Shown here piece by piece: positions 56,930-61,873 of a stretch of DNA of 64,000 nt. The translations under genes and the position numbers were made by a program. The notes below the pieces were generated by a model. The model did not search any database and had not been told where the DNA came from. It saw nothing but the letters and a program-made list of their open reading frames with translations. Each line of letters opens with the position of its first letter. The first letter of the stretch is position 1. The DNA comes from Acidobacteriota bacterium (lineage in GTDB: Bacteria > Acidobacteriota > Thermoanaerobaculia > UBA5066), in the NCBI GenBank assembly GCA_029781975.1, contig JAKOVQ010000053.1, positions 186,001 to 250,000 on the forward strand, written 5' to 3'.

Positions 56930-57478
56930 CTACGCCGCGGCGGGGGGGCCGAGCCTGGCGAAGAGCTTCGGGAGCGCGGCGAAGTCCGGGTGGTCGCCCA
57001 CGTGCCGGAAGTCGTGCTTCCAGAGGACGTCGGCCCCCTTCACGTAGAAGAGCCCGGGCATCTGCAGGACGTCTCCCACCGGCCGGCCGAGGACGTGCCC
57101 CTTCGCGGCGGCGCGGAGCGAGCAGGCGATCGACCCGGGGCCGAGCACCTCCAGCGCGGAGCCCTTCTCGAGCCCGAGGCCGCGGTAGAAGGTCCGCTCC
57201 GGGTCCGCGACGGCGCGGGCGTCCTTCCAGCGGTCGTCGAAGAAGGCGCGCCCCTCGTCCGGGGACGCCTGGTAGAAGAAGAGGACGGGAGGGAACGAGG
57301 GGTCCTTCCGGGAGAGCGCAGACAGGTCGCCGACCGTCTCACGGCAGAAGGGTCACCCGAAGTGGCGGAGGAAGACGAGGAGCGTCGGCGTCCGGCCGAG
57401 CTGCGCGCGGAGCGTCCCGGGCTCGAGGTTGACGCCGTCGACGGCGCGCTCGAGGAGCTCTGCGGGGATCTTCTTCAT
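56930..57478 (-). CDS. Probable selenoprotein: SelL/AhpC-TSA-like redox protein with in-frame UGA
   Basis: Read through a single in-frame TGA (57353-57355) this is a 182-residue protein; without read-through it would stop after 41 residues. The UGA codon is residue 42 in FLRHFG-U-PFCRETV, exactly where the thioredoxin-fold AhpC/TSA_2 relatives carry the peroxidatic Cys, forming UxxC with C45. The frame stays open for 140 more codons with family features: DPERTFYRGLGLEKGS, SLRAAAKGHVLGRPVGD, MPGLFYV and KHDFRHVGDHPDF. A SECIS-like hairpin follows the UGA at the right distance. ATG at 57478 follows GGGAGGA. I infer selenocysteine; decay or a sequencing error is less likely because only this one codon is affected. 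It ends the six-gene minus-strand operon. Confidence 0.78.
57320..57339 (-). promoter_or_regulatory. Bacterial SECIS-like stem-loop
   Basis: In the mRNA, AGACGGUC pairs with GACC(U)GUCU: 8 bp, one bulged U, and a GGC loop. The stem begins 14 nt and the loop 22 nt after the UGA. Loop distance, stem length, G in the first loop position and the bulged U agree with the known bacterial SECIS pattern. Confidence 0.7.
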
Positions 57479-57522
57479 CGGGGTCCTCCCGGCGCGGCGC
57501 CTCCGCGCGTCGAACGGATCGC

Positions 57523-58386
57523 TCAGTGGACCGTCGCCCGGCGGGAGAGGTCGTCCATCCGCGCGGCCGCGTCGTCCGCCTCGGGAGTGTCGGGGAAGTC
57601 CTCCAGGACCTCGCCGTAGGCCGACGCCGCCAGGTCCCAGGCGCCCACGGCCGCCGCGGCCGCCCCCTTCTGCAGCCGCCTCTCGGGGAGCTCGGGCCGG
57701 AGGGCCGCGAGGAAGGTCACCACCCGGAACGTCCCCGCTCCGTCCCCCTCGCGATGGGTCGAGTCGATCAGGTTCGCGAGGACCCGCTCGACGATCTCGT
57801 CGACGGGGCTCGCCTTCAGGAACTCGTCGCTCCAGGGGACCGACCCCCCGCTCAGCTTCTCCAGGAGCCGCCGGCACCCCTCCCGCGTCAGCCCCGTCCC
57901 GCCCGAGAACGGGTCGACGATGACGCCGCGGTCGCCGCCGACCCGCGCGAGGAAGTGGCGCGGCATCCCGACGCCGTCGACGGTGATCCCCGCGCGGCGC
58001 CCCACCTCGATCCAGACCGACGAGAGGAGGATCGGCATCCCCCGCCGGAGCGACAGGACCTGGTGGAGGCAGCAGGTGCGGGCCGCGTGGTACTCCTCGA
58101 CCTCGCCCGTGAAGCCGAGCTCCTCGCCGAGCAGCTCGCGCAGGAGCCGGGCCCCGACGTAGGCGCTCCGGGCCGACGCGCGGGCGGCGCGGCGGGCGAG
58201 CGTGTCGGCCCACGTGTCGAGGAGCTCGCCGTCGGCCTCCCGCGTCTCCTCGTCGGTCCCCTCGAGGGCCGCGAGCGCCCCCGCGAGGCGCCCCTCGGCC
58301 ACCGCCTCGAGGAACGCCTCGAGGTCCGCGTCGTCCGCGGCCGTCCAGATCTCGCGGAGCAGGGGGACGGGGGAGATGCCGAGCAC
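57523..58386 (-). CDS. SirB1-like transglutaminase-fold protein with TPR-like tail
   Basis: A 287-residue protein of the SirB1/DUF-type transglutaminase-like family. The recognisable part is HQVLSLRRGMPILLSSVWIE, RAGITVDGVGMPRHFLARV and VIVDPFSGG, corresponding to the conserved RRGIP, GHFLV and DPF blocks. The usual asparagine-tyrosine block is replaced by a Cys-Cys-Leu-His (TCCLHQ) run. The C-terminal 70 residues look like a TPR pair (AAAAVGAWDLAASAYGEVLE). Function of the family is unclear. It lies between the patatin and selenoprotein genes in the operon. Confidence 0.7.
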   Translation of the reverse strand: MLGISPVPLLREIWTAADDADLEAFLEAVAEGRLAGALAALEGTDEETREADGELLDTWADTLARRAARASARSAYVGARLLRELLGEELGFTGEVEEYHAARTCCLHQVLSLRRGMPILLSSVWIEVGRRAGITVDGVGMPRHFLARVGGDRGVIVDPFSGGTGLTREGCRRLLEKLSGGSVPWSDEFLKASPVDEIVERVLANLIDSTHREGDGAGTFRVVTFLAALRPELPERRLQKGAAAAAVGAWDLAASAYGEVLEDFPDTPEADDAAARMDDLSRRATVH

Positions 58387-59421: not shown

Positions 59422-60531
59422 TCAGGCGGCCTCTTCGCCTGCGCCGGGCCGGTCCTTGGCCATCCGGACGAGGGCCCAGACCGAAAGGGCGACGCAGAGG
59501 ACGAGGACGACGAGGAAGAGGGCGAGGACGCTCCACTGCGGCGCGACGGCCGGAGCGCCGGTCACCCCCTCCGCGGCGAGGGTGACCTCGCGGAGCTGGT
59601 GGCGGGTGACCAGCATCAGAATCGTCGCCAGGCCGAAGAGCTCGAGGGCGTGCCTCACGAGCTTGCGCTGCGCGAGCGGGTCGACCGTCCGCGCCAGGAC
59701 GAGGAGGAGGCCGAAGCCGAGGACGACCGCGAGCGTGAAGGGGACCATCGTCGCGGCCCCGCCGCGCATGAACCCGCGGAGGACCGGCCCGGGGAGCGCG
59801 CCGACGAGCCAGAAGCCGACGAGGAGCTGGGCCGCCGTCGCCCCGAGGGCCAGCTTGATTCCCCATCGGGCGCGGTCGGCGCGGTCCGCGTCCTCCGGCG
59901 CCGCGTCGGGGTTCCGGACGGCGAGCCAGGCCACGAGGACGGCGGCGAGCGTCACCGCGGCGAGGACGAAGTGGAGCCAGCGCGGGAGGAAGGCCCGGTC
60001 CGCGAAGGCGGCCCACGGGTCGCCGAGGGCGGAGGCCCAGCGCGACGGCTGCTGGTGGAGGAGGCTCACGGCGACCTGGATCGCCGCGATGGCGAGGAGG
60101 AGGACCGCCGTCGACGCCACGGCCGCGGTCGCCCCCTTCCCGGCCCGGAAGCGGTACTTGGCGACGTAGTTCAGGTAGTAGGCGGCCGTGAGGAGGACGA
60201 GGAGGCCGAGCCAGTGGGCGGCCACGAGGATGGTCGCCGTGTAGAAGAGGCGGCCGTAGATCACCTGCAGGAAGAGGAGCGGCGCGATCCCGAACGTGAT
60301 GGCGAGGGAGATCGCCCACGTGTTCACCTCGACGAGGAAGCTCGCGGTCCGCCGCCCCGGCTCCCCCTTCCGGAAGAGGAGGGAGAGGGTCGCGACGACC
60401 GAGCCGCCGAGGACTGCGTTCATGAAGAGGACGTGGATGAGGAAGGTGAAGACCCAGAGGACGTGAAAGAGCCAGGGGGGGCCGGGGATCGGGGCCGGGT
60501 CGAGCGCGGGGATCGGGCTGCTAGCGGGCAC
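59422..60531 (-). CDS. Cytochrome bd-superfamily membrane subunit (second subunit)
   Basis: A 369-residue protein with eight or more hydrophobic helices. Histidines in WLFHVLWVFTFLIHVLFMN and AAHWLGLLVL, and HFVLAAVT, could bind haem. The layout resembles a CydA-like protein and not CydB; it begins inside the end of the first subunit gene. Paired CydA-like subunits with one fused to cytochrome c are described in divergent bd-type families. Its electron acceptor is unknown. Confidence 0.65.
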   Translation of the reverse strand: MPASSPIPALDPAPIPGPPWLFHVLWVFTFLIHVLFMNAVLGGSVVATLSLLFRKGEPGRRTASFLVEVNTWAISLAITFGIAPLLFLQVIYGRLFYTATILVAAHWLGLLVLLTAAYYLNYVAKYRFRAGKGATAAVASTAVLLLAIAAIQVAVSLLHQQPSRWASALGDPWAAFADRAFLPRWLHFVLAAVTLAAVLVAWLAVRNPDAAPEDADRADRARWGIKLALGATAAQLLVGFWLVGALPGPVLRGFMRGGAATMVPFTLAVVLGFGLLLVLARTVDPLAQRKLVRHALELFGLATILMLVTRHQLREVTLAAEGVTGAPAVAPQWSVLALFLVVLVLCVALSVWALVRMAKDRPGAGEEAA

Positions 60532-61873
60532 GGGGGGCCTCCGCGACCTTCGGGGCGTTCAGGCTGACGAGGTAACGGGCGAGTGCGTCGAGCTCCGCGT
60601 CCGTCCCGACGAACGGGGGCATCGTCGGGTAGCCGGGCTTCGCGGTGCCGTCGCCCGCCCGGAGCGCCTTCCAGGCCGCGCCGTCGTCGCGCAGCGCGGT
60701 CAGGAACATCGTCGCCAGGTCGGCGTCCATCGGCTCGACGATCTTCCGGATGCCGAGGTAGCCGTCGAGCGTGTGGCACGTCGAGCACTCGGCCCGGAAG
60801 ACGGCGCGCCCCGTCTCGGCCTTCCCGGCCCGCTCGAGCGGGCCCCACCGGGCCTTGGAGAGGATCCCGTCGCGGTTCAGCCGGTCGATCTCGGTCACGA
60901 GGACGCCGTTGGAGAACATCTGGTCGCGGATGACGAACGGCTTGCGCGACCCCTCGCGGAGCCTCTCGTACCCCCCGAGGACGGCGAAGGCGGCCAGGAG
61001 CGTCACGACGGCGAGGCCCCAGTTCTGGAGCCGGGGGAGGAGAGCGGTCAGGAGGAAGAGGGCCGCGGAGACGGCCAGGGCCCAGAGGACGAGGTGCCGG
61101 GTGGCGGCGAGCGAGGCGAGGAGGGGCTTGGCCCCGAGGAAGAAGCGGGTGACGCCGTCGGGGAGCGACCGCTCCCACCAGAGGCCGCCGAGCGCGGCGA
61201 GGGCCGCGCCGGCGACCGAGATCGCGGAGAGGAGGCGGACGGCGCGGGCGCGGGCGCCGCGGTCCTTCTCGCGCAGGGCGGAGAGCGTCAGGTAGCCCCC
61301 CGCGAGGAGGAGGCAGGCGCCGGTCCGGAAGACGAGGCCCGGGACGTAGGAGGGGTTGAGGAAGCCGTCCCAGAAGCTCCCCGTCGCGATCCAGCGCCCG
61401 GGCGTCAGCATGAAGGCCAGGATCCCCTGGATCACCACGAGCGACATGAAGGCGGCGAAGGCGTAGAGCCAGATGAGGACGAGGTGCGTCCGCGGCCGGA
61501 CCTTGTCCCACGTCGCGACGTACGCCAGCGCCGTGACGATCTCGAGGAGGAAGAAGCCCCACTCGATCGCCCAGCCCCAGACGAAGGTGTGGATGAGCGA
61601 GGAGGTGGCCGCGGGCTGGACGAGGCCGATCGTGAACCAGATCGCCACGCCCGAGATCGCGCCGAAGACCGTCGAGACGAGGACGAGGAGCCAGGAGCCG
61701 CGACGGGCCAGCTCGCGGAACGCCCGGTCGCCGTTCCTCACGGCGAGCGTCTCGAGGATCCCGAGGGTGATGCCTCCGCCGATCGCGAAGTGCGAGACGA
61801 CGACGTGGAGGATCGCGACGATGCCGATGAGGACGCCGCCGCCGATGGCAGGGTTCCAGATGGGGTAGTCCAT
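60521..61873 (-). CDS. Cytochrome bd-like subunit I with fused C-terminal cytochrome c
   Basis: A 450-residue protein. The membrane part (about 1-300) starts GGGVLIGIVAILHVVVSHFAIGG-like with a histidine in the first helix as in CydA, and has TFVWGWAIEWGFFLLEIVTA, where glutamates lie at the haem d ligand region. After the last helix a soluble domain carries one haem c site, CSTCH (363-367), with a distal Met in PTMPPF near 418. The quinol-binding Q-loop of CydA is not evident. It could oxidise quinol or cytochrome c and reduce O2 or another acceptor. ATG follows GGAGG, 28 nt after the cysteine synthase stop. Confidence 0.72.
   Translation of the reverse strand: MDYPIWNPAIGGGVLIGIVAILHVVVSHFAIGGGITLGILETLAVRNGDRAFRELARRGSWLLVLVSTVFGAISGVAIWFTIGLVQPAATSSLIHTFVWGWAIEWGFFLLEIVTALAYVATWDKVRPRTHLVLIWLYAFAAFMSLVVIQGILAFMLTPGRWIATGSFWDGFLNPSYVPGLVFRTGACLLLAGGYLTLSALREKDRGARARAVRLLSAISVAGAALAALGGLWWERSLPDGVTRFFLGAKPLLASLAATRHLVLWALAVSAALFLLTALLPRLQNWGLAVVTLLAAFAVLGGYERLREGSRKPFVIRDQMFSNGVLVTEIDRLNRDGILSKARWGPLERAGKAETGRAVFRAECSTCHTLDGYLGIRKIVEPMDADLATMFLTALRDDGAAWKALRAGDGTAKPGYPTMPPFVGTDAELDALARYLVSLNAPKVAEAPRAR

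Follow-up and report, generated by a model that had tools for sequence, protein, structure and literature searches.

The motif of selenoprotein L (SelL) is UxxU. SelL is a selenoprotein of fish, invertebrates and marine bacteria (PMC2397514, PMC2398784), its occurrence in marine bacteria being reported in PMC2397514. An AhpC/TSA family selenoprotein (pfam13911 / cd02970) with a UxxS site also appears on selenoprotein lists (PMC9312934, PMC13188914). Here we analyze a gene in a 64,000-nucleotide stretch of bacterial DNA (the window) that very probably encodes a selenocysteine (Sec)-containing protein from the SelL-related branch of the peroxiredoxin-like AhpC-TSA_2 (PRXL2-like) proteins, in which UGA codon 42 would be decoded as Sec via SelB, and U42 and C45 would make up the redox site.

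Reading frame, fold and possible chemistry

The gene is a single 182-codon frame on the minus strand (57478-56930), interrupted solely by a TGA at codon 42, and its translation reads MKKIPAEL...FLRHFG-U-PFC...PPAAA-stop. A first-pass annotation made from the sequence had proposed this frame, from ATG to TAG with one TGA, and a good ribosome site in front of it; the coordinates proved exact, and the region upstream of the ATG does contain a good Shine-Dalgarno sequence. The features of the locus are as follows.

56930..57478, minus strand: predicted selenoprotein gene for a SelL-related (AhpC-TSA_2) redox protein; ATG at 57478, TAG at 56932-56930; homologues align across the TGA
57479..57490, minus strand: ribosome-binding region GGGAGGACCCCG, upstream of the ATG
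57353..57355, minus strand: in-frame TGA, codon 42, predicted Sec; TGA or Cys only at this column in 59 loci
57344..57346, minus strand: codon 45 (TGC), likely resolving Cys of UxxC; three distant homologues have Sec here
57320..57339, minus strand: candidate bacterial SECIS hairpin of 8 bp with a bulged U and a GGC loop; apical stem and loop shared with the nearest relative, L034

Standard gene callers can truncate or miss selenoprotein genes with an internal TGA. This could happen here, since the first in-frame start codon 3′ of the TGA is codon 111.

The protein scored 138.9 bits against the NCBIfam model NF040769 (SelL-related redox protein; curated cut-off 120) over residues 9-171, and 38.5 bits against Pfam PF13911 (AhpC-TSA_2; gathering cut-off 27), bearing out the AhpC/TSA_2 (SelL-related) assignment of the first-pass annotation. 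We modeled the structure from a nine-sequence alignment with Cys substituted for Sec, and obtained a confident prediction (mean pLDDT 90). The best sequence match in the PDB was human prostamide/prostaglandin F (PGF) synthase (E 3.7e-6), which was also the top fold, followed closely by Xanthomonas PrxQ. In the alignment with the human enzyme, U42 pairs with C44 and C45 with C47, so that the predicted Sec comes first in a CxxC-type site; the initial description of codon 42 as the peroxidatic position was correct insofar as C44, the partner of U42, is the first CxxC Cys.

We infer the chemistry from the family. The U42 selenol would be the attacking residue of the thioredoxin-fold UxxC site, C45 would resolve it as a selenenylsulfide, and cellular thiols would then reduce the selenenylsulfide. 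The protein would most likely reduce peroxides or disulfides, and this scheme does not distinguish a peroxidase from a disulfide reductase. That the protein acts mainly as a thiol-disulfide or substrate-specific reductase, not as a peroxidase, is a real possibility, though we lean somewhat against it: prostamide/PGF synthase, the best match by sequence and fold, has a CxxC site, and UxxC is a thioredoxin-type arrangement, but the PrxQ peroxidases rank closely behind in the fold search.

A Transglutaminase-like (Transglut_core2) gene at 57526-58386 lies on the same minus strand and ends about 45 bases upstream of the selenoprotein gene; because of this strand and spacing the two may be co-transcribed. 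We saw no conserved operon context in the homologue loci, where about 1.5 kb per side was covered and neither neighbour was matched. Further away, the minus-strand gene at 60524-61873 has an N-terminal match to cytochrome bd subunit I and a C-terminal cytochrome c domain, and the gene adjoining it (59425-60531) had no Pfam match.

TGA and Cys codons among homologues

We searched the host phylum, in which 54 of 396 genomes had a match to the selenoprotein, and added other phyla and further stretches. Fifty-nine loci, including this gene, were aligned with TGA kept open; L027, a very short match, was left out. At the codon 42 column, 39 of the 59 loci, this gene among them, have TGA and the remaining 20 have Cys, the residue that the first-pass annotation had expected in close relatives if Sec is inserted. 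None of the aligned loci has TAA or TAG at this column. Elsewhere in query residues 5-165, TGA occurs three times, always at codon 45, and turns the motif into UxxU. These TGAs belong to distant homologues with two TGAs each (L070:475-996, L072:319-921 and L079:461-997), giving UxxU as in metazoan SelL; L070 and L079 exceed the NF040769 cut-off. Four TAA or TAG codons lie in the same interval: those at positions 5, 7 and 11 are in homologues whose start may be further in, and the one at position 149 is in a Cys homologue. Stops at varied places in the homologues had been named at the outset as an observation that would speak against Sec; we looked for this pattern and did not find it. Since one Sec homologue (L037:1501-2028) has UVFP, with the second motif Cys missing, a resolving Cys at the second motif position is evidently not universal.

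The nearest relative, L034, is 62% identical to this selenoprotein. In this comparison, dN was 0.36 and dS about 1.0 past the TGA, and dN was 0.32 and dS about 0.9 before it. These values indicate that purifying selection persists downstream of the TGA, as it does in the upstream part.

Selenocysteine machinery and the candidate SECIS hairpin

The first-pass annotation had suggested a search of the genome for selA, selB, selC and selD, and all four were found: selA (425 bits), selB (above its cut-off), a tRNA-Sec (selC) with anticodon UCA, and selD in two copies, both above the family cut-off. One selD has a TGA of its own in the sequence ACAGUASKL (L029:1501-2430, identical to G000:C15:537242-538171, minus strand); the second, without a TGA, is separate (G000:C2:101491-102414). 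UxxK is the listed site of Sec-containing SelD (PMC13188914). Because the TGA of the first selD falls at this canonical site, SelD is predicted to be a second selenoprotein of the host genome.

We then compared 53 other genomes with the protein, 33 with a TGA inside the gene and 20 without; for 9 of these 20, only the absence of a stop was read, not the Cys itself. Matches to selA above the cut-off were present in 32 of the 33 TGA-form genomes vs 10 of the 20 without a stop (Fisher p=8e-5; the genomes are related, and the p value is indicative only). The single TGA-form genome in which selA was not found, G104, has a fragmented assembly.

The hairpin behind the TGA was examined separately. Its 8 bp, single bulged U and GGC loop at 57339-57320 are as first described, but the spacer is 13 nt, not 14; the stem begins 13 nt and the loop 21 nt past the TGA. 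Published bSECIS criteria are a loop of 3-9 nt, a G in the first two loop positions, a distance of 16-37 nt from the UGA and an MFE of at most -7.5 (PMC13188914). This gene falls within them, but so do 228 of 300 (76%) random TGAs in the GC-rich window, and we therefore dropped the hairpin as stand-alone evidence for Sec. Its fold z-score was -0.05, with 88 of 200 shuffles folding equally well, and relative to synonymous recodings it was not stronger (z 0.16). By itself, the hairpin does not exceed chance and merits much less weight than the word "clear", used of it initially, would give it. An Rfam search gave no SECIS match, and the RF00031 search gave no match in any control genome either, which makes it uninformative.

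The family as a whole gave a different picture. Two of the Sec loci, L049 and L065, are fragments of one genome, leaving 38 Sec rows for the tree and the hairpin tests. The bSECIS limits accommodated 32 of the 38 Sec homologues and 12 of the 20 Cys homologues, and the mean z for hairpin stability against synonymous recoding was -1.66 for Sec homologues and -0.25 for Cys homologues (Mann-Whitney p=0.003). L034 retains GGTC-GGC-GACC at an equal distance with a different lower stem, a likeness to which conservation of the residues V-G-D-L contributes. The hairpin is thus plausibly a SECIS, supported at the level of the family and not by itself.

That the hairpin taken singly is indistinguishable from chance would suit readthrough in which a near-cognate tRNA for Trp or Cys decodes the UGA and neither SelB nor a SECIS takes part. 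We consider such readthrough very unlikely, as Cys is the sole exchange partner at the column, selA accompanies nearly all other TGA forms (32/33), and the host encodes a tRNA-Sec with anticodon UCA. Still less probable is a true stop, left by pseudogene decay or by a Cys codon sequenced wrongly. A lone stop with the rest of the frame open is what a recent nonsense mutation or an error of one base would produce, and the assembly is in draft state (54 contigs). Against this, TGA stands at this column in 38 other loci and TAA or TAG in none, the genome encodes the full Sec machinery, and selection persists past the TGA.

From the Sec machinery, the exchange of TGA and Cys in homologues and the selection past the TGA, we infer Sec insertion at codon 42, as the first-pass annotation had done. 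SelB with GTP and Sec-tRNA(UCA), held by the hairpin just 3′ of the UGA, would decode the codon as Sec.

Evolution and comparison with described families

A tree of 58 sequences shows six changes between the Sec and Cys states, at least four of which are forced by well-supported branches. The closest Cys relatives (L035, L036 and L038), about 50% identical, sit within a Sec-rich clade. Sec forms were seen only in the host phylum, as read from a scan beyond it that used back-translated Cys-form peptides and is biased against Sec forms. We tentatively suggest that the SelL-related proteins of a single bacterial phylum might form a CxxC/UxxC/UxxU series with repeated Sec/Cys exchange and a bacterial UxxU group paralleling metazoan SelL, a breadth that would not have been described before. 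With Cys, Sec and double-Sec active sites on a single scaffold, the family is useful for testing what Sec contributes to a peroxiredoxin-like enzyme.

Taken singly, the gene is a fairly ordinary bacterial selenoprotein gene. A partial literature search turned up no description of UxxC members of the SelL-related branch. The locus had been called a probable new selenoprotein, which holds for the gene as a probable new member but not for the protein family, which is already named (NF040769) and has published Sec relatives.

Human prostamide/PGF synthase (PDB 9us9, 9usa) is the best counterpart by sequence and fold, but it has Cys only and about 21% identity, and its substrate is not necessarily common to this protein. 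The listed AhpC/TSA selenoprotein shares the Pfam family and a Sec at the first motif position, with UxxS in place of the UxxC seen here. SelL proper has two Sec residues in UxxU; the motif here is UPFC. Both are peroxiredoxin-like proteins with Sec in a UxxU/UxxC-type motif, a likeness drawn from published descriptions of SelL, and SelL has a diselenide (PMC2397514), whereas this protein has UxxC with one predicted Sec. The closest correspondence is to NF040769, which this protein matches over its whole length, as its Sec and Cys relatives also match, and no tested feature separates it from that family.
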